Below the pieces are notes generated by a model. The model had not been told where the DNA came from, made no database searches, and saw only the letters and a program-made list of their open reading frames with translations. The position numbers were made by a program, and so were the translations under genes. 35,540 bases of DNA, taken from a virus. Shown in pieces: positions 741 through 27,238 of this stretch (its first letter is position 1; the number at the start of each line of letters is the position of its first letter). The DNA lies in the IMG/VR virus record IMGVR_UViG_3300027770_000141, positions 1 to 35,540 of that record; one strand, given 5' to 3'.

Positions 741-1595
741 TTAAAAATCTCCAATATTATTTATTAGTGTTTTCAATCCATTCGCCATCAAATAACGATA
801 AACATGTGTTGAAGTGGTTTCAATCGGTTTATCGTATTCAGTTAGAATATTTTCCTGAAGATCATCAGGAATATAATCAAAATCGATCAAATATTTATTG
901 CGCATGTATCCGGCCAATTCTGCATTATTCATGATAGATTCAGGTTTGAAACAGGCGAGAATCTGATCAATCTTCTTCTGAGTCAACCTCTTCTGCCTCT
1001 TACCCTGGGTAACAAAGGTATCATCGTCGGATAAGAAATTCGGAACACCATCGCCAGTATCACCAGATAAAACTTTCTCAAGTAGATATTTCTTAGGATG
1101 TTCTTCTTTAATCCACGCCTTCATGATAGTCGAATATTGTGAGACATTAGGATACTTCTGTAATTGAACGAAATCCTTGTCTCCAGAAATAATGAGAATT
1201 TTCTCAGAAGAAGAGAATCTTTTGGTTAGAATTGCAATAACATCATCGGCTTCGCAGGTAGGAATCTCAATATATCGATAAGGGAAGTTTCCCCGAATCT
1301 CTCCCTTGATCTTATTGATAGTCTTGAATATCGCATTCCAATCAAAGATCGATGCATCCCTAGATTTCTTTCTATTGGCCTTGTAATACGGAAAGAGAGA
1401 TTTGCGCCAATAATTGAAAGAATCCGAACAAAGCACCAGTTCGCCATATTTATCACCAAACTTGGATCTAACAGAACGAATTGAATTTAAGATCATATGG
1501 CGAAGAAAATCTTCTTCAATAGTGTCACTCTTGCTGATGTTTATCTGTTGCATAATATTTGATACAACGATTTGATTTAAGTCTAAGAGAATCAT
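741..1595 (-). CDS. rnh: T4-type RNase H (5'-3' exonuclease/flap nuclease)
   Basis: The protein has 284 residues from ATG 1595, which has AGGT six bases upstream; a longer frame to 1640 adds 15 residues without a good ribosome site. The family is the FEN/RAD2-like nuclease that removes RNA primers and flaps from lagging-strand fragments. Visible metal-binding motifs in order are MILLDLNQ near the N-terminus, CSDSFNYWRK with the basic helix YYKANRKKSRD, CEADDVIAIL, SGDKDFVQLQ, and SGDTGDGVPN before the helix-hairpin-helix region. These acidic clusters match T4 RNase H in order. The gene sits next to the clamp gene, the expected functional partner. The stop lies 1 bp from the next gene. Confidence 0.93.
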   Translation of the reverse strand: MILLDLNQIVVSNIMQQINISKSDTIEEDFLRHMILNSIRSVRSKFGDKYGELVLCSDSFNYWRKSLFPYYKANRKKSRDASIFDWNAIFKTINKIKGEIRGNFPYRYIEIPTCEADDVIAILTKRFSSSEKILIISGDKDFVQLQKYPNVSQYSTIMKAWIKEEHPKKYLLEKVLSGDTGDGVPNFLSDDDTFVTQGKRQKRLTQKKIDQILACFKPESIMNNAELAGYMRNKYLIDFDYIPDDLQENILTEYDKPIETTSTHVYRYLMANGLKTLINNIGDF

Positions 1596-1611
1596 AATTT
1601 TACCTATATTT

Positions 1612-1640
1612 ATTATACTACTATTACAGGAAAATATCAA
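1612..1640 (-). promoter_or_regulatory. sigma-70-like promoter for RNase H
   Basis: Minus strand TTGATA (1635-1640) is followed after 17 bp by TATAAT (1612-1617). The predicted transcript starts near 1605, giving a leader of about 10 nt that contains the AGGT ribosome site. Confidence 0.55.
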
Positions 1641-1651
1641 TAGATAGATTA

Positions 1652-2167
1652 TTATTCGCCCACCTCAACCGTCTTCATCTTCTTCTTGGCAATCTCAGCC
1701 TTCGCCTTCTCGAAGAGTTCTTTCTTCGTCATAATCTTCTTATTGTTTTTCTCAATATTCTTTTTGATCGAAGTCACGATCGGCAATTCTACTTCTACGA
1801 CTTCAGACTCAACGATCTTCTTGTTGGTCCGAACTCGCTTAGTTTTCGGAGCGGAACCATCATCAGTCTTAACCTTTGCGGGTTTCTGAACCTTAGCAAC
1901 AGGAATCACTTCGGTGACACCTTCCCAAGGTGCTTTACCAGTAACCCAGGAATCGGGAATCGTGTATTGGCCTTGGCCGAGACGAGTCATCTTTCCATAG
2001 CCTTGATTCCGTGAAGCGAACATGGTGAATCCAACACCATTCGTCTTTCCGATCTCTTCAACGTTCGCACGAGTAAAGACCTTATTGTCACCCCCACCGA
2101 AAGTCTCCGAAAGAGACGTCACGAAACCCTGCAGGGCCAATTCACGAGTAATTTTAACACGAGCCAT
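1652..2167 (-). CDS. basic protein of unknown function, possible DNA-binding N-terminus
   Basis: This 171-residue protein begins MARVKITRELALQGFVTSLS. The first 75 residues look like a compact folded domain containing FGGGDNKVFTRANVEEIGKT and a glycine- and tyrosine-rich stretch ending in GQYTIPD. The remainder is low-complexity and strongly basic, with a Lys-rich tail. The N-terminal part resembles a winged-helix style DNA-binding unit, but this is an inference and I do not recognise the family. It starts with AAGGA ribosome binding spaced about 11 nt from ATG 2167 and is driven by its own consensus promoter. It lies upstream of RNase H and the clamp, suggesting a replication or transcription accessory role. 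Confidence 0.75.
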   Translation of the reverse strand: MARVKITRELALQGFVTSLSETFGGGDNKVFTRANVEEIGKTNGVGFTMFASRNQGYGKMTRLGQGQYTIPDSWVTGKAPWEGVTEVIPVAKVQKPAKVKTDDGSAPKTKRVRTNKKIVESEVVEVELPIVTSIKKNIEKNNKKIMTKKELFEKAKAEIAKKKMKTVEVGE

Positions 2168-2208
2168 AATTTTTAATTTTCCTTTTTGAGAATTTTCTCT
2201 ACTTAACC

Positions 2209-2237
2209 ATTATACTAGATCTTTCGTTGATTGTCAA
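2209..2237 (-). promoter_or_regulatory. perfect-consensus sigma-70 promoter
   Basis: Minus strand TTGACA (2232-2237), a 17-bp spacer, and TATAAT (2209-2214). The transcript would begin near 2202, leaving a leader of about 35 nt that contains a small GAGAAAATTCTC palindrome and the ribosome site AAGGA before the 171-aa gene. Confidence 0.8.
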
Positions 2238-2268
2238 GCATTCAACGAAATTAATTTATCGAACCGAA

Positions 2269-2541
2269 TCATCCATTAATAACTTTTCCATCCAGGATAA
2301 TCTTGCCACCAGTATGCACCAACAACCCATCGTTCATCAGAACTTGGAGCGGGGCGGAAGCTTCAAGCTTCTTGAAGTAATCCTCAACAGTGTAATACTT
2401 TACGAGCACGGCCATGAACTTTGCTTTCGTGACAGGAGAGCTCCTGTATTTGAACCGAGCCACAAAATTCGGTTGTCCGTTCAACTCATAAGACAATATG
2501 TTATTGCCAGCGTTAAAAAATTTGCTTCTTTCGAATTCCAT
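2269..2541 (-). CDS. small early protein of unknown function
   Basis: This is a 90-residue protein beginning MEFERSKFFNAGNNILSYEL. ATG 2541 is chosen because the frame upstream runs into a repeat and a promoter: TATAAT ends exactly 6 nt before this ATG, so the mRNA is predicted to start at the A of the start codon. The middle holds QPNFVARFKYRSSPVTKAKF and the C-terminus is LLVHTGGKIILDGKVING. It has no membrane segment and resembles no family I know. Two other short proteins behind the same promoter type (ends at 11293 and 11074) are similarly small and soluble, typical of host-takeover early genes. Confidence 0.7.
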   Translation of the reverse strand: MEFERSKFFNAGNNILSYELNGQPNFVARFKYRSSPVTKAKFMAVLVKYYTVEDYFKKLEASAPLQVLMNDGLLVHTGGKIILDGKVING

Positions 2542-2576
2542 AGAACCATTATAGCGTATTAGAACAGAGGTAGCAA
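2539..2576 (-). promoter_or_regulatory. early promoter P1, predicted leaderless start
   Basis: Minus strand TTGCTA (2571-2576), 17 bp, TATAAT (2548-2553), then GGTTCT and ATG. Six bases between the -10 box and ATG put the transcription start on the initiation codon itself. There is no ribosome-binding sequence. Confidence 0.8.
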
Positions 2577-2585
2577 CTTTTTTCG

Positions 2586-2651
2586 AAACTATATCTCCTT
2601 TGTTTTCAACGACTTGGTGCAAGTGATTGATTCATAAGAGAGATATAGTTT
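2586..2651 (+). repeat. structured repeat copy a, 12-bp inverted arms
   Basis: Arms AAACTATATCTC (2586-2597) and GAGATATAGTTT (2640-2651) are perfectly complementary. The interior holds a second imperfect stem centred on ACTTG-GTG-CAAGT. The copy at 2793-2858 has the same 66-nt length and differs at only two positions. Copy a lies just beyond the -35 box of promoter P1. Confidence 0.85.
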
Positions 2652-2792
2652 GATATCGCTGCAGGGGTTCCGGGAGACCAGGTATACCTATGGACCACCT
2701 GAATCCAGAGATCGCTTGTGTGCGTCCCTGGGACGATCCATGCAGGCAATAACACAGGTGTGGGTATAGATGGAACCTCCATGGATTCACCA
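2652..2792. other. intergenic core 1, gene-free and structured
   Basis: About 140 bp between two direct copies of the repeat, richer in G and C than the surroundings and without a credible gene. Possible pairings include TGAATCCA (2700-2707) with TGGATTCA (2782-2789), GGTTCC (2666-2671) with GGAACC (2772-2777), and the near-perfect palindrome CGTCCCTGGGACG (2723-2735). The first two pairings cross, so they are alternatives or a pseudoknot. It could be a small RNA, a control region or a replication site. The sequence alone does not decide. Confidence 0.4.
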
Positions 2793-2858
2793 AAACTATA
2801 TCTCCTTTGTTTTCAACGACTTGGTGCAAGTGATTGATTTATAAGGGAGATATAGTTT
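2793..2858 (+). repeat. structured repeat copy b, 13-bp inverted arms
   Basis: Arms AAACTATATCTCC (2793-2805) and GGAGATATAGTTT (2846-2858) are perfectly complementary. The copy is in direct orientation to copy a and almost identical to it. It ends 9 bp before the -35 box of promoter P2, mirroring the position of copy a relative to P1. Confidence 0.85.
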
Positions 2859-2867
2859 GCGAAATCC

Positions 2868-2907
2868 TTGCTACCTCGGTTCCAATAAGGTATAATGGTT
2901 CTATATG
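2868..2907 (+). promoter_or_regulatory. early promoter P2, predicted leaderless start
   Basis: TTGCTA (2868-2873), 17 bp, TATAAT (2891-2896), then GGTTCTAT and ATG at 2905. The start site would fall at 2902-2905, leaving 0-3 leader bases and no ribosome-binding sequence. The block AAGGTATAATGGTTCTAT is shared with several other promoters in the window. Confidence 0.82.
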
Positions 2908-3894
2908 AATGACACGAATAAGGTTAATCTGGTAAACGAGCTCGTTACGAAGTTTGGTACGACCGTCAATCGTGAACAATTAATGTCAACTGCGGCGAAG
3001 TATAAAGTGAATCCTGGATTCCTAACTGCGAATAGAATCAGTCGTGGTGTGTACGATATTTCTAATTGCGTGACATCGACTCCCACTCAGAAAACTGACA
3101 ATATTAAGGTTGAATTAACTGACGAAGAAATTCTTGATAGTCAACGTCGTCGCTTCCGGACGCTAGATCGTATGGCTTCTGGTGTTGTGGCCGGAAAGGT
3201 TCGCAGCATGATCGTCTCTGGTCCTGCTGGTATCGGTAAGACTTATACGATCGAAGGAATGTTAGAGACTGCTGAAGCTTCTAATCAGATTAAATACAAA
3301 AAGATCACTGGATTCGTGAAGGCGACTGGTCTCTTCAAGGCTCTCTGGGATAATCGCTCCGAGAATTCTGTTATTCTTATCGACGACGCTGATTCTGCCT
3401 TTGACGATGAAATTGCTCTTAATATTCTGAAGGCTGCTCTTGATTCGTCAAAGCGTCGTGTTATCTCTTGGGCTTCTGAGAAATTATTTATCGATGAGTT
3501 TGGTGAAGCGATTCCCAATACATTTGAATATCGTGGTTCGATGATTTTCATCACGAACAAGAATTTCGAAACTGCGATTTCTCAAGGAAAGAATCTTTCC
3601 CCGCACTTCCAAGCTCTTATCTCCCGTTCGTTTTATATTGATTTGAATATGAATTCGACTCGCGAATATCTTATTCGCATGGAAGATGTTCTGAAGAATA
3701 CTGATATGGCTTATACTCTTGGTTTGACCGAATCGGATACCACTTTCATCATGAAGTATATTCGGACAAATGCAAATCGGATGCGGGAATTATCGCTGCG
3801 TGCGCTTTTGAAGCTTGCCAAAATCCTGACTTTTGCTGATTCTCGTGCAGACTTTGAAGAAATCGCTGAGACTACTTGCCTTCGTCGCAAGTAG
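2905..3894 (+). CDS. AAA+ ATPase
   Basis: This 329-residue protein carries a central AAA+ module. Walker A is GPAGIGKT at residues 106-113, Walker B is VILIDDAD near 156-163, and a sensor-1-like strand MIFITNKN follows about 55 residues later. An arginine-rich C-terminal helical segment (NANRMRELSLRALLKLAKIL) fits an AAA+ lid. The first 60 residues form a small N-terminal region containing PGFLTANRISRGVYDIS. By family, such ATPases remodel protein or nucleic-acid complexes; the substrate here is unknown. The gene is predicted to be leaderless, and a 9-bp hairpin overlaps its stop. It begins the plus-strand early run. It is not the T4 clamp loader gp44 or helicase gp41 by its motifs. Confidence 0.85.
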   Translation: MNDTNKVNLVNELVTKFGTTVNREQLMSTAAKYKVNPGFLTANRISRGVYDISNCVTSTPTQKTDNIKVELTDEEILDSQRRRFRTLDRMASGVVAGKVRSMIVSGPAGIGKTYTIEGMLETAEASNQIKYKKITGFVKATGLFKALWDNRSENSVILIDDADSAFDDEIALNILKAALDSSKRRVISWASEKLFIDEFGEAIPNTFEYRGSMIFITNKNFETAISQGKNLSPHFQALISRSFYIDLNMNSTREYLIRMEDVLKNTDMAYTLGLTESDTTFIMKYIRTNANRMRELSLRALLKLAKILTFADSRADFEEIAETTCLRRK

Positions 3895-3895
3895 T
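3871..3895 (+). other. hairpin over the ATPase stop codon
   Basis: ACTACTTGC (3871-3879) pairs with GCAAGTAGT (3887-3895) around a 7-nt loop, and the TAG stop lies in the second arm. No T tract follows, so this is more likely a processing, stability or attenuation element than a complete intrinsic terminator. Confidence 0.55.
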
Positions 3896-3943
3896 CGCAA
3901 CTGCCAAATTGTAAGGTATAATTGAGTTAGAGGAAAATATATA

Positions 3944-4063
3944 ATGCTACGAATTATGGAACTGTGGATTAATGTTACTGATTACAATGTTGACATGTTG
4001 GATTGTGGTTGGGAGCTTGTTAAGTTTGAAGACGATCTCGTCCTCTTAATTAAGGAGTATTAA
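3944..4063 (+). CDS. 39-residue acidic small protein
   Basis: A short frame from ATG 3944 to TAA 4063 encodes a protein beginning MLRIMELWINVTDYNVDMLD and ending LVKFEDDLVLLIKEY. It has an AGAGGA ribosome site about 8 nt upstream and a TATAAT box at 3916-3921 preceded by AAGG, although no good -35 is visible. Its stop overlaps the next start as TAATG, so translation is probably coupled to the exonuclease gene. The shape is typical of tiny phage accessory proteins. No family is recognised. Confidence 0.65.
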   Translation: MLRIMELWINVTDYNVDMLDCGWELVKFEDDLVLLIKEY

Positions 4064-4638
4064 TGTCTGTAAAATACTTATTCTGCGACACAGAAACATC
4101 CGGGATCGATCCATCGAAACATGGTGTTATTCAAATTTCAGGATTAATTGATATTGACGGAGAAGTTCAAGAAACATTTGATATTAAGGTTCAACCATTT
4201 AAGAATCAGCTGATCTCTAAAGAGTCAATGAAGATTAATGGGGTGACTGTAGAAGATCTACAGAATCACATTCTTCCACAAGAAGGATATAATATCTTAA
4301 TCAACATATTTTCTAAGTATGTTTCGAAATTCAACAAGACTGATAAGTTCTTTTTGGTTGGATACAATTCGACTTTCGATGACACTTTTTTGCGCAAATT
4401 CTTCATCAATTGTGGAGACGAATATTATGGCTCATGGATTTGGTGGCCAACTATTGACGTGGCTACATTTGCTGCAGAATTTCTTAAAGAGGAAAGGTCT
4501 AAGTTTCCAAATTTCAAATTATCAACTGTGGCGAAAGCCTTGGGAATTGCTGTAGACGAGACAAAATTGCATGAAGCTCTGTATGATTCGATCTTAACAC
4601 GATCAATTTATCGTAAAACTATTTTAGGAATTGACTAA
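4063..4638 (+). CDS. DnaQ-like 3'-5' exonuclease (DEDDh)
   Basis: This 191-residue protein has the three exonuclease motifs of the DnaQ/DEDD family. Exo I is FCDTETSG with D9 and E11, Exo II is YNSTFDDTFL with D106, and Exo III is KLHEALYDS with H170 and D175, which places it in the DEDDh subgroup. The family degrades DNA or RNA from 3' ends using two metal ions; proofreading, RNA trimming and host nucleic acid degradation are all possible roles. No polymerase domain is attached, so it is a stand-alone enzyme. The start overlaps the preceding stop (TAATG), and GGAG lies 6 nt upstream. It probably shares a transcript with the small genes on both sides. Confidence 0.9.
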   Translation: MSVKYLFCDTETSGIDPSKHGVIQISGLIDIDGEVQETFDIKVQPFKNQLISKESMKINGVTVEDLQNHILPQEGYNILINIFSKYVSKFNKTDKFFLVGYNSTFDDTFLRKFFINCGDEYYGSWIWWPTIDVATFAAEFLKEERSKFPNFKLSTVAKALGIAVDETKLHEALYDSILTRSIYRKTILGID

Positions 4639-6951: not shown

Positions 6952-7635
6952 ATGCCTAAAATTATTTATACAGACTCGAACAGATTCTATGTCTATGCAT
7001 TTCTGCGAAAAGATAACACCCCATATTATATTGGAAAAGGCCAGGGTAATAGAGCCTGGAGCAAGAGACAATTTCGTCCGGTGGACGATTCGAGAATTGT
7101 TATTCTCAAAGAGATACTTACAGAAACAGAAGCTTTCGATCTTGAAACAGAACTTATAGAATTTTATGGTCGAAAAGATAATGAGACGGGAATTCTCAGA
7201 AATCTAACAGATGGTGGAGAAGGAACTTCTGGCTACATAAATTCTGAAAAAACCAAAGCCAACATGTCTGCAGCTAAATCTGGTGTGAATAATCCTATGT
7301 TTGGAAAGAAGCCTCATAATTTTGGAAAGAAAGCTTCAGAAGAAACTATAGCCAACATGTCTGCAGCTCTATCTGGTGTGAATAATCCTATGTTTGGAAA
7401 GAAGCCTCATAATTTTGGAAAGAAAGCTTCAGAAGAAACTATAGCCAAACGTTCTGGTGAAAATCATTATAATTTTGGAAAGAAACGATCTCCAGAAATA
7501 ATAGCCGAAATATCTAAATCTAACACTGGAAAGAAACATTCACCAGAATCCAGAGCCAAAATGCGAGAATCATGGATTCTAAGAAAGATTTCTAATACTA
7601 TGACAGAAATAGAAAATATCTCTGTTGATGTTTAA
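6952..7635 (+). CDS. GIY-YIG homing endonuclease with NUMOD3 repeats
   Basis: This 227-residue protein has an N-terminal GIY-YIG nuclease: YVYAFLRKDNTPYYIGKGQG carries the two signature strands, followed by a conserved Arg region and the catalytic Glu of ETELIEFYG. From about residue 100 it consists of DNA-binding NUMOD3 motifs, each with the N-P-M-F-G-K-K or N-F-G-K-K pattern followed by a short helix. A 31-residue unit is duplicated in tandem. It is free-standing, lies between tRNA genes on the opposite strand and is driven by a late promoter, like the T4 Seg enzymes. AAGGAAG precedes ATG 6952. The flanking sequences repeat each other, indicating insertion or duplication of the tRNA-edge sequence. 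Confidence 0.93.
   Translation: MPKIIYTDSNRFYVYAFLRKDNTPYYIGKGQGNRAWSKRQFRPVDDSRIVILKEILTETEAFDLETELIEFYGRKDNETGILRNLTDGGEGTSGYINSEKTKANMSAAKSGVNNPMFGKKPHNFGKKASEETIANMSAALSGVNNPMFGKKPHNFGKKASEETIAKRSGENHYNFGKKRSPEIIAEISKSNTGKKHSPESRAKMRESWILRKISNTMTEIENISVDV
7258..7443 (+). repeat. 93-bp tandem duplication inside the GIY-YIG gene
   Basis: Units 7258-7350 and 7351-7443 are almost identical, differing at about two bases. Each encodes one 31-residue block containing NPMFGKKPHNFGKK. The near identity marks a recent expansion of the DNA-recognition region. Confidence 0.85.
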
Positions 7636-7685
7636 TATGAGTTTCCTATAAAGGTTTACAATATGGGCCAAACTTGTCACTTGTC

Positions 7686-7730
7686 ATTTAACAACACTAT
7701 TTATTATAGATCTTCCACACAAGAAACACT
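7686..7730 (+). repeat. right flank repeat of the GIY-YIG cassette
   Basis: Contains ATTTAACAACACTATTTA and TCCACACAAGAAA in the same order as 6818-6855, and lies just after GGCCAAACTT. It overlaps the 3' end of the 22-aa membrane peptide gene. Confidence 0.65.
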
Positions 7731-7765
7731 GTTGTAATATATAACCAAAGTAAAAATGTAATCAT
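7697..7765 (-). CDS. 22-residue membrane peptide, paralogue of the 56-aa protein
   Basis: The frame from ATG 7765 begins MITFLLWLYITTVFLVWKIY. AAAAGGA precedes the start by about 6 nt. The helix LWLYITTVFL closely matches FWLYITTVLF of the 56-residue protein at 6345-6515, and both lie just 3' of tRNA genes on the same strand. It looks like a truncated duplicate, or a minimal single-helix version, of that gene. The intervening GIY-YIG cassette separates the two copies. Confidence 0.5.
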   Translation of the reverse strand: MITFLLWLYITTVFLVWKIYNK

Positions 7766-7788
7766 AATATCCTTTTCCTAGAAAGGTT

Positions 7789-7880
7789 TGGTGCTTCGAT
7801 TGGGACTTGAACCCAAACTAACCTCTAATCTGGAGAATCGGGTTTATAAGACCCGTCGTGCTACATTACACTATCGAAGC
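7789..7880 (-). tRNA. class II tRNA with apparent TAT anticodon
   Basis: Acceptor GCTTCGA/TCGAAGC, T-arm TTGGG-TTCAAGT-CCCAA and encoded CCA are perfect. The anticodon stem CGGGT/ACCCG closes a 7-nt loop CTTATAA, giving TAT (Ile). However, the D-stem has only 3 bp and the variable region is about 22 nt with a CTC/GAG stem, as in Leu, Ser or Tyr tRNAs. Body and anticodon disagree, so amino-acid identity is uncertain. Confidence 0.8.
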
Positions 7881-7900
7881 AATTATTAATTTTGTTTACA

Positions 7901-7976
7901 TGGAGCGAAAATTCGGATTCGAACCGAAACTAATAGTTTGGAAAACTACTGTGCTAACCATTAACACCATATTCGC
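7901..7976 (-). tRNA. tRNA-Gly(TCC)
   Basis: Acceptor GCGAATA/TTTTCGC with one T-T mismatch, D-arm GTG/CAC region, anticodon loop TTTCCAA giving TCC, T-arm TTCGG-TTCGAAT-CCGAA. Discriminator T is followed by an encoded CCA. Confidence 0.88.
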
Positions 7977-8587: not shown

Positions 8588-9181
8588 TCAACCGATAATT
8601 TTGTCCCCAGAGACCCGAGCGTTCCCATAGACCACTGCGTTCCCAGAGACCACTGCGTTCTCATAGATCCAGGCGTTCCCAGAGACCACTGCGTTCCCAG
8701 AGACCATTGCGTTCCCATAGACCATTGCGTTCTCATAGATCCAGGCGTTCCCAGAGACCATTGCGTTCCCAGAGACCATTGCGTACCCATAGACCGATGC
8801 GTTCCCAGAGACCACTGCGGACCCATAGACCCGAGAGTTCCCAGAGACCAATGTGTACCCATAGACCATTGCGTTCCTATAGACCCGAGCGTACCCAGAG
8901 ACCTGAGCGTTCTCAAAGACCATAGCGTTCTCAAAGACCATAGCGTTCCCGAAAACCATAGCGTTCCCGAAAACCCTGGCGTTCCCAGAGACCCGAGCGT
9001 ATCCATAGACCACTGCGTTCCCAGAGACCACTGCGTCTCCAGAGATTACTGCGTCAGGACCAACAAAAGCGGTCTCAGCGACGGTAGCAGTATTCTGGAC
9101 CCAGCCGCCTCCGTTAGGATGAACGTGCCACGTCTCAAGAGTAGCGTCAGGAAAAGCTGTCTTTAAATCTTCGAACTTCAT
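8588..9181 (-). CDS. left-handed beta-helix repeat protein (hexapeptide type)
   Basis: This 197-residue protein has a 30-residue N-terminal cap, MKFEDLKTAFPDATLETWHV, followed by NGGGWVQNTATV and about 24 imperfect hexapeptides of the form G-N-A-x-V-x. Such repeats fold into a left-handed parallel beta-helix, as in hexapeptide acyltransferases and the E. coli YdcK-like group. No catalytic His typical of the acyltransferases is obvious, so a binding or structural role is more likely. The DNA is an array of 18-nt repeats. A paralogue with the same cap lies at 10432-11028, where the helix is more diverged. The start sits 8 nt after a -10 box, predicting a leaderless early mRNA. Confidence 0.85.
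   Translation of the reverse strand: MKFEDLKTAFPDATLETWHVHPNGGGWVQNTATVAETAFVGPDAVISGDAVVSGNAVVYGYARVSGNARVFGNAMVFGNAMVFENAMVFENAQVSGYARVYRNAMVYGYTLVSGNSRVYGSAVVSGNASVYGYAMVSGNAMVSGNAWIYENAMVYGNAMVSGNAVVSGNAWIYENAVVSGNAVVYGNARVSGDKIIG
8590..9060. repeat. 18-nt repeat array encoding hexapeptides
   Basis: The array is built from 18-nt units related to GTTCCCAGAGACCACTGC and to GTTCCCATAGACCATTGC, read on the plus strand. It encodes the beta-helix rungs on the minus strand and keeps other frames open, which produces several spurious long frames here. Confidence 0.85.
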
Positions 9182-10431: not shown

Positions 10432-11028
10432 TTATTCGTTACCACTTTCGTTCCATGCGACCTTGGTATGCCCAGAGATCTGGGCCTTCCCAGAGACCAC
10501 TGCGGATCCATAGATCCGAGCGTTCTCAAAGATCTCAGCGTCTCCGCAGACCTGAGCATCCTCATAGACCCAAGAAGTCCCGGAGACTATAGCGTTATCA
10601 AAGACCCGAGCGTTATCCATGACCTGGGAACTCCCACAGACAAAAGAAATTCCATAAACCCAAGCAAATCCTGAAACCTGGGCGTTCCCCAAGACCCGAG
10701 ATCTCCCTTCGACCCGAGCGTCTCCAGAGACCCCAGCGTGCTCAAAGATATGAGCTTTCTCACCGACCTGAGCGTTCTCGCAGACCACAGCGGATTCGTA
10801 AACCCAGGCGTCGCCCCAGACCACAGCGTTCCCATAGACCCGAGCGTGGTCGAGGATCCGAGCTTCCTCATAGACCCGAGCGGATCCAGAGACGATAGCG
10901 TCAGGACCCACATAGGCACTATTAGTGACCGTAGCAGTATTCTGAACCCAGCCTCCTCCATTAGAATGAGGGTGCCACGTCTCAAGAGTAGCGTCAGGAA
11001 AAGTAGATTTCAAATCTTCGAATGTCAT
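10432..11028 (-). CDS. second left-handed beta-helix repeat protein
   Basis: This 198-residue paralogue of the protein at 8588-9181 shares the cap, which here begins MTFEDLKSTFPDATLETWHP and again leads into NGGGWVQNTATV. Roughly 26 hexapeptides follow, with patterns such as G-S-A-R-V-Y and G-D-A-W-V-Y, more varied than in the first copy. The fold is predicted to be a left-handed parallel beta-helix. The function is unknown; repeated cap and early promoter suggest both copies act in the same early process, perhaps binding a host target. The promoter has a perfect TTGACA -35 box. The start codon lies 8 nt after the -10 box, predicting a leaderless mRNA. Confidence 0.85.
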   Translation of the reverse strand: MTFEDLKSTFPDATLETWHPHSNGGGWVQNTATVTNSAYVGPDAIVSGSARVYEEARILDHARVYGNAVVWGDAWVYESAVVCENAQVGEKAHIFEHAGVSGDARVEGRSRVLGNAQVSGFAWVYGISFVCGSSQVMDNARVFDNAIVSGTSWVYEDAQVCGDAEIFENARIYGSAVVSGKAQISGHTKVAWNESGNE

Positions 11029-24106: not shown

Positions 24107-25267
24107 ATGACAGAAAATTATTTGGGAATTAATATTGATTATTCAAGAGATTCAAACTTTGACGAATTAGGTTTGAAGAGATTGAAAGAATCATATATGG
24201 GTGACAAAGAGACTTCCCCACAACAAAGATACGCATTTGTATCAAAATATTTTTCGTCAAATCCTGAACATGCACAGAGACTATATGATTATTCTTCTAA
24301 ACATTGGTTAAGTTATTCTACACCAATTCTTTCTTATGGTAGAACAAAGAAAGGTCTTCCGATTAGTTGTTTTTTGTCATACATTCCGGATTCCGCAGAG
24401 GGATTGGTTGATGCCTTGTCGGAAACTAATTGGTTATCTATGTTGGGTGGTGGTGTAGGACTTGGTATTGGTATGAGATCTTCGAGTGAGAAATCTACTG
24501 GTGTTATGGCGCATATGAAAACGTATGATGCTTGTTCTTTGGCATATAGACAAGGAACAACACGACGTGGATCTTATGCAGCTTATATTGCTATCTCACA
24601 TCCAGACATTATCAATTTCATGGAGATGAGAAAACCTACTGGTGATCCAAATATTCGTTGCTTTAATATGCATAATGCAGTAATGATTCCAGATTCCTTC
24701 ATGAAGATTATTGAACGATGTATGGTGGATCCTACTGCAGATGACTCCTGGGATCTGATTGATCCTTCTTCAAACGAAATTAGAGAAACTGTTTCAGCAA
24801 AGTATCTTTGGCAATTGTTATTAGAATTAAGAATGATGACTGGCGAACCTTATCTGTTGTTTATTGACACTGCAAATAATGCTATGCCAAGAGAACAATA
24901 TGATAAAGGTTTAAGAATTCGACAATCTAATATCTGTTGTTTAACTGGAGATTCGAAGATTACTGTATCTAAATCGAAAACAGGGAGCAATCCTTTCCAA
25001 GAGAATTTAAAATCTTTTGTTGAGAAGTATACAATGGGTTTTTACATAGAAGATATCTGGGTTAAGAGTTTCGATACACAAACACAAGAAGTCGAGTGGA
25101 ATTTAATTGACGGGGCAAAACATTCGGGAGATGTTGATGATTTGTATGAAATTGAAACACCATCTGGTAATGTGATTCGATGTACACCCGAACATTATAT
25201 CTGGACCAAAAATCGTGGATATGTCATGGCTCAAGATTTACTTGAAACTGACGACTTAGTAGAGTAA
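24107..25267 (+). CDS. nrdA: ribonucleotide reductase large subunit, N-terminal extein fused to split intein N-half
   Basis: The 386-residue frame has two parts. Residues 1-277 are NrdA: YSTPILSYGRTKKGLPISCF with the first redox Cys, the glycine loop MLGGGVGLGIGMRS, NMHNAVMIPD, and RQSNIC, whose C277 aligns with the thiyl-radical Cys 439 of E. coli. No N-terminal ATP cone is present. Residues 278-386 are an intein N-half: C278 begins CLTGDSKITV (block A), and VIRCTPEHYIW carries the T-x-x-H of block B; a stop follows DDLVE. It should splice in trans with the C-half at 26186-26287. AGAGGA precedes ATG 24107. Confidence 0.93.
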   Translation: MTENYLGINIDYSRDSNFDELGLKRLKESYMGDKETSPQQRYAFVSKYFSSNPEHAQRLYDYSSKHWLSYSTPILSYGRTKKGLPISCFLSYIPDSAEGLVDALSETNWLSMLGGGVGLGIGMRSSSEKSTGVMAHMKTYDACSLAYRQGTTRRGSYAAYIAISHPDIINFMEMRKPTGDPNIRCFNMHNAVMIPDSFMKIIERCMVDPTADDSWDLIDPSSNEIRETVSAKYLWQLLLELRMMTGEPYLLFIDTANNAMPREQYDKGLRIRQSNICCLTGDSKITVSKSKTGSNPFQENLKSFVEKYTMGFYIEDIWVKSFDTQTQEVEWNLIDGAKHSGDVDDLYEIETPSGNVIRCTPEHYIWTKNRGYVMAQDLLETDDLVE

Positions 25268-25341
25268 TTTCAGTACTTATAAATTTTCTGGTATGTTCTG
25301 AAATTTAGTTTTCTATAAATATATTATAGAGGATTTCTTAT
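25268..25341 (+). other. gap between intein N-half and HNH gene
   Basis: AATTTCAG (25266-25273) can pair with CTGAAATT (about 25297-25304) around a long loop, and the late promoter follows. The hairpin could slow read-through from the early operon into the endonuclease gene. No coding frame is seen. Confidence 0.4.
25314..25321 (+). promoter_or_regulatory. T4-type late promoter for the HNH gene
   Basis: TATAAATA, with predicted start near 25327 and an AGAGGA ribosome site before ATG 25342. It would also transcribe the downstream intein C-half/NrdA-C and NrdB genes late in infection. Confidence 0.75.
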
Positions 25342-26184
25342 ATGGACTACCAGAAAATTTATAGAGATTTAATGGTTAAGGCAAAAAGACAAAATAGAGT
25401 GAAAACTAAAGAACATTATTTTGAAAAACATCATATTATACCAGAATGTTTATTTAAGATTAGAACGAGAAGTGGTCCTAAGGGATATGTTGATGGTGAT
25501 TCCGATGATCAAAATAATTTGGTTCTGTTGACACCCAGAGAGCATTTCATCGCTCATGTGTTATTATGTAAAATTTACAAAAACACTGAATATGCATTTA
25601 AAATTGGTTCTGCTTTATTATTCTTTTTCTCTAAAATTATAAATCCCATGCATCCTAGACTAAAATCATTCGCACCTAATAGCAAAAAATATGAATCATA
25701 TAGAATAATGGGGATTCAATCGATATCAAATGCCAACAAAGGATATATTAATGTTCGCGAACGTGATACTGGTAAATATATAGGTAGAATTTCTATAAAC
25801 GATCCGGATTACATATCAGGTAAATATGTCCATCATACTAAAGGTAGAAAAATATCTGATATTGAACGATCACACAGAAAACCACAAACAGGTAGTAATA
25901 ATAGTAATTACAAAGAAATGACCGAAGAGAGAAAATTGCGATTGTTTTCTCTAGTAGACCGTTGTTTGATTGGTAATCACTTGATATTAAAGTTACTACA
26001 ACGTGAAATGCAAACTGAATTTGTAGAATTTAAAAAAATTAGTAGAGTGTGGTTAGATAATAATTTTGGCTCTATTCAAAATTTTATAGACGAGTGCAAT
26101 AAAACCAATAATTCAACAATACAATATGCACCATATTTTCGTAATTCACAAAGTTATAAAAAACAGTTTTTAAGTAAGGATTAA
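25342..26184 (+). CDS. HNH homing endonuclease between the nrdA halves
   Basis: This 280-residue protein has an HNH core: YFEKHHIIPECLF with H30 and H31, DDQNNLVLLTPREHFIAHVL with Asn 58/59, H68 and H72, typical of phage homing endonucleases with the HHIIP and LTPREHFIAH motifs. A middle segment with NANKGYINVRERDTGKYIGR and a C-terminal helical region with RVWLDNNFGSIQNFIDECNK look like DNA-binding modules. It is a complete separate gene with its own ribosome site and late promoter, not fused to the intein. Its stop lies 1 nt before the start of the intein C-half. It presumably cuts an unbroken nrdA allele to spread this arrangement. Confidence 0.9.
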   Translation: MDYQKIYRDLMVKAKRQNRVKTKEHYFEKHHIIPECLFKIRTRSGPKGYVDGDSDDQNNLVLLTPREHFIAHVLLCKIYKNTEYAFKIGSALLFFFSKIINPMHPRLKSFAPNSKKYESYRIMGIQSISNANKGYINVRERDTGKYIGRISINDPDYISGKYVHHTKGRKISDIERSHRKPQTGSNNSNYKEMTEERKLRLFSLVDRCLIGNHLILKLLQREMQTEFVEFKKISRVWLDNNFGSIQNFIDECNKTNNSTIQYAPYFRNSQSYKKQFLSKD

Positions 26185-26185
26185 T

Positions 26186-27238
26186 ATGATAAAAATTAAA
26201 AAAGTAAAAACGAATGCAACTGCAGTTTATGATATTTCAGTACGTGGAGTAAATAATTTTTTCGCCAACGGAGTGTTAGTCCATAATAGCGAAATCGTCC
26301 TCGCATCTGACGAAAAACGCACAGCAGTATGTTGTTTATCTTCAATTAATATATACAAATATGATGAATTCAAAGATTCGTTTAACCAAGTTATTTCTGA
26401 TGTTGCAGAAATGTTAGATAACGTTCTGACAAAATTTATTAATGAAGCTCCGAATAGTATCAAAAGAGCAAAATATAGTGCGATGATGGAAAGAGCTATT
26501 GGTATTGGAGCTCTGGGTTACCATTCGTATCTACAATCTAAATCTATTCCTTTCGAATCTGTTGCTGCTAAAGTCTTCAATCGATCTTTCTTTAAGACTA
26601 TGAAAGAACATGCTGATACTGCCAATCTTAGATTAGGTACAGAACGTGGTGAAGCTCCAGATATGGTGGGATCCGGGAAACGATTCTCTCATTCAATCGC
26701 AATTGCGCCGAATGCAACAACCAGTATTATCATGGGTAATATTAGTCCTTCAATTGAACCACTAAGGGCAAATGTTTTCAGACAAGATACTCTATCAGGT
26801 TCATTTATTCATAGAAATAAAGAGTTAGAAAAAGTTCTCCTTACTAAGAACGTCGATATGGAAGAAATCTGGAATTCAATTGTGTTGAACGATGGATCTG
26901 TTCAGCATCTAAAATGTTTATCTGATGATGAGAAGGATGTATTCAAGACAGCAATTGAAATCGATCAAAGATGGATTATTGAAACTGCAGGTGACAGACA
27001 AAAATATATTGATCAAGCACAATCAGTTAATTTATTCTTCAAACCAGATACTCACGTTAAATATCTACATGCTATCCATTTCTTAGGATGGAAAGTTGGT
27101 TTGAAAACACTTTATTATTGTCGATCAGAAAAGATCAGAAAGGCAAATAAGATATCTCAAAGAATCGAGCGAAAGAGAATTGAAGATATAGATATCAAAT
27201 CACTTGTTGATGGAGAAGGTTGTCTTGCGTGTGAGTGA
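26186..27238 (+). CDS. nrdA: split intein C-half fused to ribonucleotide reductase large subunit C-terminal extein
   Basis: Residues 1-34 are the intein C-half: VYDISVRGVNNFFANGVLVHN with block F and the block G ending H-N, followed by Ser as the +1 residue. Residues 35-350 continue NrdA: SEIVLASDEKRTAVCCLSSI supplies the active-site Glu (C439-x-E441 in E. coli) and the second redox Cys, then NATTSIIMGNISPSIEPLRA, the radical-transfer pair GLKTLYYCR and the C-terminal redox tail GEGCLACE. Trans-splicing with residues 1-277 of the upstream frame would give a 593-residue enzyme. AAGGA precedes ATG 26186. NrdB follows 28 nt after the stop. Confidence 0.93.
   Translation: MIKIKKVKTNATAVYDISVRGVNNFFANGVLVHNSEIVLASDEKRTAVCCLSSINIYKYDEFKDSFNQVISDVAEMLDNVLTKFINEAPNSIKRAKYSAMMERAIGIGALGYHSYLQSKSIPFESVAAKVFNRSFFKTMKEHADTANLRLGTERGEAPDMVGSGKRFSHSIAIAPNATTSIIMGNISPSIEPLRANVFRQDTLSGSFIHRNKELEKVLLTKNVDMEEIWNSIVLNDGSVQHLKCLSDDEKDVFKTAIEIDQRWIIETAGDRQKYIDQAQSVNLFFKPDTHVKYLHAIHFLGWKVGLKTLYYCRSEKIRKANKISQRIERKRIEDIDIKSLVDGEGCLACE

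Follow-up and report, generated by a model that had tools for sequence, protein, structure and literature searches.

Fractured nrdA with a split intein and a free-standing HNH endonuclease gene: a probable mobile element at a catalytic cysteine

How can an essential gene remain functional when it is broken in its catalytic-cysteine motif by an unrelated gene, and what kind of element would occupy such a place? The question is raised by the nrdA locus of an uncultured virus, IMG/VR record IMGVR_UViG_3300027770_000141, whose positions 1 to 35,540 (35,540 nucleotides, the whole stretch analysed, hereafter the window) carry nrdA in two pieces. Three intact frames, at 24107-25267, 25342-26184 and 26186-27238, encode an NrdA fragment ending in an intein N-terminal half (IntN), a free-standing HNH homing endonuclease, and an intein C-terminal half (IntC) leading into the rest of NrdA. 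This locus is very probably a fractured-gene mobile element that combines a trans-splicing intein with a homing HNH endonuclease. Its parts are as follows, all on the plus strand.

24107-24937: NrdA N-extein, residues 1-277, ending ...RQSNIC (PRK09102 and NrdE_NrdA profiles; identical protein in the uninterrupted gene of contig L001).
24938-25264: split-intein N-half, 109 aa, C1-LTGDS...TPEH...LVE, stop at 25265-25267 (TIGR01445; comparison with the mini-intein of contig L006).
25342-26184: free-standing HNH homing endonuclease gene, 280 aa (PHROG 655; conserved HNH residues).
25342-25671: MobE-like HNH catalytic half (tblastn to T4 MobE and 966 phage records).
25792-26181: C-terminal half of the endonuclease, the putative target-recognition domain for the nrdA site (37 of 37 relatives at the site).
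26176-26180: ribosome site AAGGA for the second nrdA frame, within the end of the HNH gene (read from the sequence).
26186-26287: split-intein C-half, 34 aa, MIKIKKV...FANGVLVHN (TIGR01443 above cut-off).
26288-27235: NrdA C-extein, 316 residues, Ser at +1, stop at 27236-27238 (PRK09102; 99.7% identical in L001).

Both intein halves score above curated cut-offs. The N-half matches the NCBIfam profile intein_Nterm (TIGR01445) from residue 278 with 30.7 bits against a cut-off of 24.5, and the C-half matches intein_Cterm (TIGR01443) over residues 14-35 of its frame with 29.5 bits against 15.6. The splicing residues are complete (Cys1 in LTGDS, TPEH in block B, a terminal VHN and Ser+1), and the layout is that of a naturally split intein, with separate frames, a stop at 25265, a new start at 26186 with its own ribosome site, and each half fused to its extein. 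The first-pass annotation had described a broken nrdA with an N-half opening at C278 (LTGDS, later TPEH) and a new frame whose C-half ends in VHN before Ser; its coordinates all hold, as does its spliced length of 593 residues (277 + 316). The two NrdA pieces cover the class I profile PRK09102 without a gap (11-284 and 284-604), and the C-extein holds the remaining active-site residues and the C-terminal CxxC. The halves can be aligned to the contiguous mini-intein of L006, to which IntN is 52% identical, and their net charges are -10 (IntN) and +4 (IntC). The solved intein closest to the contiguous relatives is NrdJ-1 (PDB 8ubs, E 3.9e-25), which differs in that its host enzyme is NrdJ. On either side lie thyX and nrdB, which places the element in an ordinary cluster of nucleotide-metabolism genes.

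That the element is an insertion follows from its closest relative. Contig L001 matches the window with 97% identity along 6.8 kb to the left of the element and 99.5% along 2.2 kb to its right; its nrdA is uninterrupted, with residue 277 joined directly to the first C-extein residue (C277-S278), exactly at the predicted splice point. The two differ by precisely 24938-26287, or 1,350 bp; the other differences are the first Ser codon (AGC in the window, TCC in L001) and scattered substitutions. Nearly all of the 80 nearest relatives of the NrdA N-terminal piece are likewise uninterrupted at this site, while L006 (N-extein 88% identical) has a contiguous 162-residue intein at the same place, without an endonuclease. 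In the intein tree the window and L006 form a pair (100/99), with L081 (split, no endonuclease) and L082 (split, HNH) as neighbours.

The element inserts in the catalytic-cysteine motif of NrdA, and the cysteine is the thiyl-radical residue of class I reductases, C439 in Escherichia coli. At most loci the junction reads SNL/C...HN/C-x-E-I (slashes mark the intein boundaries), so that the invariant catalytic cysteine doubles as the +1 splicing nucleophile. An intein that begins one codon later, with Ser as the nucleophile (SNIC/C...HN/SEI), is found in the window, L006, L184 and L185. This shift, overlooked in the first-pass annotation, occurs in 17 of 116 scored N-junctions; the remaining shifted loci use Cys where the C-junction was scored.

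Window 24929-24940 and 26282-26293; also L183, L184, L185, L189, L192-L199 and L205: one-codon-shifted insertion (SNIC/C...HN/S or C).

These observations suggest how the parts may work together. The two nrdA frames would be translated separately, and the acidic IntN and basic IntC would associate and splice in trans (through Cys1, the Thr and His of block B, the His-Asn end and Ser+1), restoring the 593-residue NrdA that the sister phage encodes in one piece. The C-terminal half of the HNH protein would recognise the intact SNIC/SEI DNA of an intein-less nrdA, the MobE-like half would nick or cut it, and repair from the donor would copy the whole 1,350 bp into that gene. The intein would render the insertion harmless and hide the target, and the endonuclease would give the intein mobility. 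Because the read-through RNA is predicted to fold over the HNH ribosome site, the enzyme would be made only from its own late promoter.

The open reading frame 25342-26184, which separates the two intein halves of the broken nrdA as endonuclease genes do in other fractured genes, matches PHROG 655 ('homing endonuclease', E 3.5e-32), and its active-site residues H30, H31, P34, E67, H68 and H72 are invariant across 20 family sequences. The N-terminal half belongs to the free-standing family of T4 MobE, which is very common, and is 32% identical to the catalytic half of T4 MobE and PHROG 655 endonucleases; the whole protein finds 966 phage records by tblastn. T4 MobE differs in having an unrelated C-terminal half and a gene placed between nrdA and nrdB. 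The C-terminal half of the window's protein behaves quite differently from the catalytic half, as it matches only Yersinia phage vB_YenM_TG1 among 50,697 phage records. The whole HNH protein as a single query found no match among the viral contigs, being too diverged, and an alignment of the C-terminal halves of the window, L082 and TG1 was used instead; across 2.9 million viral contigs it found 37 loci, all 37 of which sit between NrdA-N/IntN and IntC/NrdA-C or reach the contig end there. A mixed alignment of GIY-YIG and HNH C-terminal halves returned 77 loci, likewise all at the nrdA site with IntC directly downstream. The queries came from the nrdA site, so that strongly diverged copies elsewhere might escape these searches, but any copy as divergent as the members of the set are from one another (about 35% identity) should have been detected. 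The simplest reading is that the C-terminal half recognises nrdA DNA around the insertion point. The proposal of the first-pass annotation that the HNH endonuclease is the mobile partner thus gains support from this site-exclusive half, together with the empty allele of L001 and the module transfer described next.

Such modules have moved between nrdA lineages. The NrdA proteins of L192 and L205 are only 41-47% identical, yet their IntN, HNH and IntC are 85%, 72% and 88% identical, whereas in vertically related pairs such as L184/L185 IntN and HNH diverge faster than NrdA. With an empty allele in a close relative and this incongruent transfer, the locus has both marks of a mobile element. Both intein halves and the HNH gene are under purifying selection in relatives: between L184 and L185 the ratio of non-synonymous to synonymous substitution rates (dN/dS) is 0.12 for IntN, 0.02 for IntC and 0.07 for HNH, values that are rough since dS is high.

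Several observations weigh against this picture. The modules of the window and L184 are no more alike than their NrdA proteins, so that transfer of the window's own module cannot be dated, and among the phages closest to the window no other with the HNH form was seen. The window's HNH protein has no Pfam match, and its predicted structure, with a predicted local distance difference test score (pLDDT) of 85 and a predicted template modelling score (pTM) of 0.57, matched no solved fold in a Foldseek search.

The alternative that survives best, although unlikely, is that the intein was split beforehand and the HNH gene rides in it as a hitchhiker, inactive or cutting elsewhere and mobilising nothing. 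Free-standing T4 endonucleases do often cut hundreds of bases from their own gene (PMC2988022), and split inteins without any endonuclease occur at this site (L079, L081, L102 and L103). A hitchhiker, however, would not be expected to carry a C-terminal half seen solely at the nrdA site, to be under strong purifying selection, or to belong to whole modules that have moved between distant nrdA genes.

The HNH gene is one of several occupants of the gap. Of the 80 loci found by the IntN scan, almost all are at this motif of nrdA, and no fewer than 37 further contigs, as well as cultured phage TG1, have their parts in the window's order. According to Pfam and PHROG assignments of representative loci, the gap contains a GIY-YIG gene at most loci, including cultured Klebsiella phage KP13-7; an HNH gene in the window, L082-L085, L092, L109, L115 and others; and a Vsr-like gene in L087. 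The last, at 6273-7304 of L087, is of the Vsr/PD-(D/E)xK kind, its Vsr-like label being a motif reading, and a shorter remnant of such a gene lies in the split-intein gap of L086 (6325-6570). No nuclease was seen inside any of the nine contiguous inteins listed at the site (L006, L104, L106, L108, L110, L120, L137, L153 and L160).

This distribution bears on the suggestion of the first-pass annotation that the endonuclease began as a nested part of a contiguous intein and later turned into a gene of its own, which we consider rather improbable. In its favour, the HNH gene occupies the very place in an intein that a nested endonuclease would normally have, and the relationship of the window and L082 HNH genes matches that of their inteins, so the association is old. 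Nevertheless, independence is the less likely direction, since no nested nuclease was seen in the contiguous inteins at the site, the catalytic half belongs to the free-standing MobE-type family, and genes of three families (HNH, GIY-YIG and Vsr-like) occupy the same gap. The data fit a history in which free-standing endonucleases entered a small intein and replaced one another.

More improbable still is that the intein halves are dead and the NrdA pieces work as a non-covalent complex. There is a precedent in Aeromonas phage Aeh1, whose broken NrdA (NrdA-a/NrdA-b) is functional without splicing (PMC3653736). In the window, however, the break falls between the catalytic Cys and Glu of one motif, and 109 + 34 unremoved residues would occupy the active site; moreover, all splicing residues are kept, both halves pass their profile cut-offs, and selection has constrained them in close relatives (dN/dS 0.02-0.12). 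Finally, an assembly chimera or pseudogene, conceivable for an uncultured virus record and raised earlier over the stop at 25265 and the HNH gene, has a negligible probability, and for practical purposes an artefact can be dismissed: many independent contigs and a cultured phage share this order of parts, all three frames are intact, and the splice junction restores the L001 protein (C277-S278) exactly.

The C-terminal halves of HNH and GIY-YIG endonucleases at the site are homologous, both in a direct comparison (L084 against L107, blastp E 1.7e-15) and between profiles (hhalign probability 99.7%, E 3e-25). For the window's own subgroup the link runs through the other HNH group, to which it is related with a probability of 97%; its direct comparison with the GIY-YIG group is weak (66%). 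The GIY-YIG structural model is poor (pLDDT 72), and the homology rests on sequence and not on fold. These comparisons support at least one exchange of nuclease heads on the common C-terminal half, because the GIY-YIG endonucleases at the site have a homologous one; a single origin of the GIY-YIG head is not rejected (approximately unbiased test, p 0.17). Domain exchange among phage homing endonucleases is known for T5orf172 types (PMC10448857). We therefore lean towards the view that one recognition domain for the nrdA cysteine site has been combined with more than one kind of nuclease head, HNH and GIY-YIG, without losing its tie to the same split intein. If so, the fractured nrdA would be a modular mobile element whose cutting part is swapped and whose address is kept, with an intein able to slide one codon across the catalytic cysteine, and the common C-terminal half would show, in nature, how nuclease heads can be changed while the DNA-recognition part stays fixed.

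All stages of a homing cycle coexist at this one site: empty (L001), contiguous intein (L006, L104), split intein with HNH (the window), split intein with GIY-YIG (L118), and endonuclease-less forms, including one with the endonuclease mostly deleted (L147). One site in one essential gene thus displays every stage that the homing-cycle model requires. Three pairs of differing alleles occur in DNA that is about 97% identical or more: the window and L001; L104 and L118 (97%), in which a contiguous intein corresponds to a split one with a GIY-YIG gene; and L147 and L148 (98-99%), which differ by loss of most of the GIY-YIG gene in L147. Coexisting stages and near-identical pairs make the origin of split inteins directly testable, and cultured TG1 opens it to experiment.

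A late promoter within an RNA hairpin probably controls the HNH gene. Three features surround its start, all on the plus strand.

25278-25293: 5' arm of a perfect 16-bp inverted repeat, TATAAATTTTCTGGTA, pairing with 25348-25363 in the start of the HNH gene (repeat search; RNA fold).
25307-25335: inner hairpin, 25307-25318 pairing with 25324-25335, whose 3' arm holds the HNH ribosome site AGGA, 25330-25333 (RNA fold).
25314-25321: T4-type late promoter TATAAATA, 20 nt upstream of the HNH start codon (motif enrichment).

The late promoter and ribosome site had been recognised in the first-pass annotation and are borne out here, while the perfect inverted repeat around the HNH start had been overlooked. 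The promoter motif occurs 11 times in the window against 3.9 expected. Counting the window, 15 of 31 loci have it at 12-42 nt before the endonuclease start, where 0.43 would be expected. In the predicted RNA fold (-32.7 kcal/mol, z -4.6) the repeat and inner stem close over the HNH ribosome site; RNA begun at the late promoter, predicted to start at about 25327, would be without the 5' arms and form no such structure. The promoter-in-hairpin design recurs with unrelated stem sequences in TG1, L085, L092, L184, L185, L045, L088, L089, L118, L148 and L156, several of these being GIY-YIG loci, and in L115 with CATAAATA instead; it is not clear in several relatives, such as L200, L204 and L208. 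The same timing control has been described for I-TevI and Aeh1 mobE (PMC2988022), and by analogy the HNH gene of the window's phage may be expressed late.

The arrangement is real and widespread, and was not first combined here. The first-pass annotation had taken the locus for a new union of two themes, a split intein and an HNH-broken nrdA. However, TG1 and many uncultured phages have the same arrangement in nrdA, Pseudomonas phage MIJ3 has an HNH gene between the halves of a split intein in PolB, which differs from the window in its host gene (PMC6892783), and the fractured-gene class as such was described in 2009, with seven nrdA cases in ocean data (Dassa et al., cited in PMC3653736). In those loci, as in the window, a split intein breaks the gene of a conserved DNA-metabolism enzyme and a free-standing endonuclease gene separates the intein halves; the window differs in its MobE-like HNH, site-specific C-terminal half, late promoter and hairpin hiding the ribosome site. 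The present sequence comparisons add the limitation of the C-terminal half to the nrdA site and its homologue in the GIY-YIG endonucleases there. Half of the fractured loci of 2009 reportedly carry a Vsr-like endonuclease.

The nearest cultured counterpart is TG1 (KP202158, L163), with the same NrdA motif, the same NrdA-IntN, HNH and IntC-NrdA order, a late promoter in a hairpin loop, and an HNH gene 32% identical to the window's with a homologous C-terminal half. It differs in that the insertion precedes the cysteine (SNL/C) and IntN is only 33% identical. The TG1 record annotates two reductase alpha genes and an HNH gene (741-4388) and leaves the intein unrecognised. Aeh1 nrdA/mobE (AY266303), to which the locus had also been compared, is an apt parallel for regulation, since mobE is an HNH gene of the MobE kind that splits nrdA and has a late promoter and a hairpin hiding its ribosome site (PMC2988022). 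The parallel fails for the insertion itself: the Aeh1 break lies about 10 codons downstream, has no intein, and involves an unrelated C-terminal half, and the locus is thus not an Aeh1-type mobE insertion.

Other interruptions of nrdA were seen among the loci. In L080 a MobE-like HNH gene (7364-7951) breaks nrdA at another place, and the NrdA-a tail (QSEILFEDDSGNSISVKSSDFVTVVRGGEEMSIRACAVLEGDDLKM), which has no phage match, resembles intein block B without block A. In L104 nrdA is broken again shortly downstream of the contiguous intein by an endonuclease-like frame (3249-4290), and the NrdA tail (LKMKVKVKKDKVEDYKKYV) resembles that of Aeh1 NrdA-a. L085 has a second insert of about 1.27 kb (272-1544) near residue 88, at the PISC active-site cysteine. 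In Campylobacter phage CPt10 (L182, 1642-5709) nrdA is annotated as a pseudogene, with two frames disrupting it; the frame ahead of the break has a weak intein N-half match (E 8e-4), and the locus may be a working fractured gene. Elsewhere in the window, two minus-strand frames at 8588-9181 and 10432-11028 consist of short repeats of the V.GNA.V kind, suggestive of left-handed beta-helix proteins.

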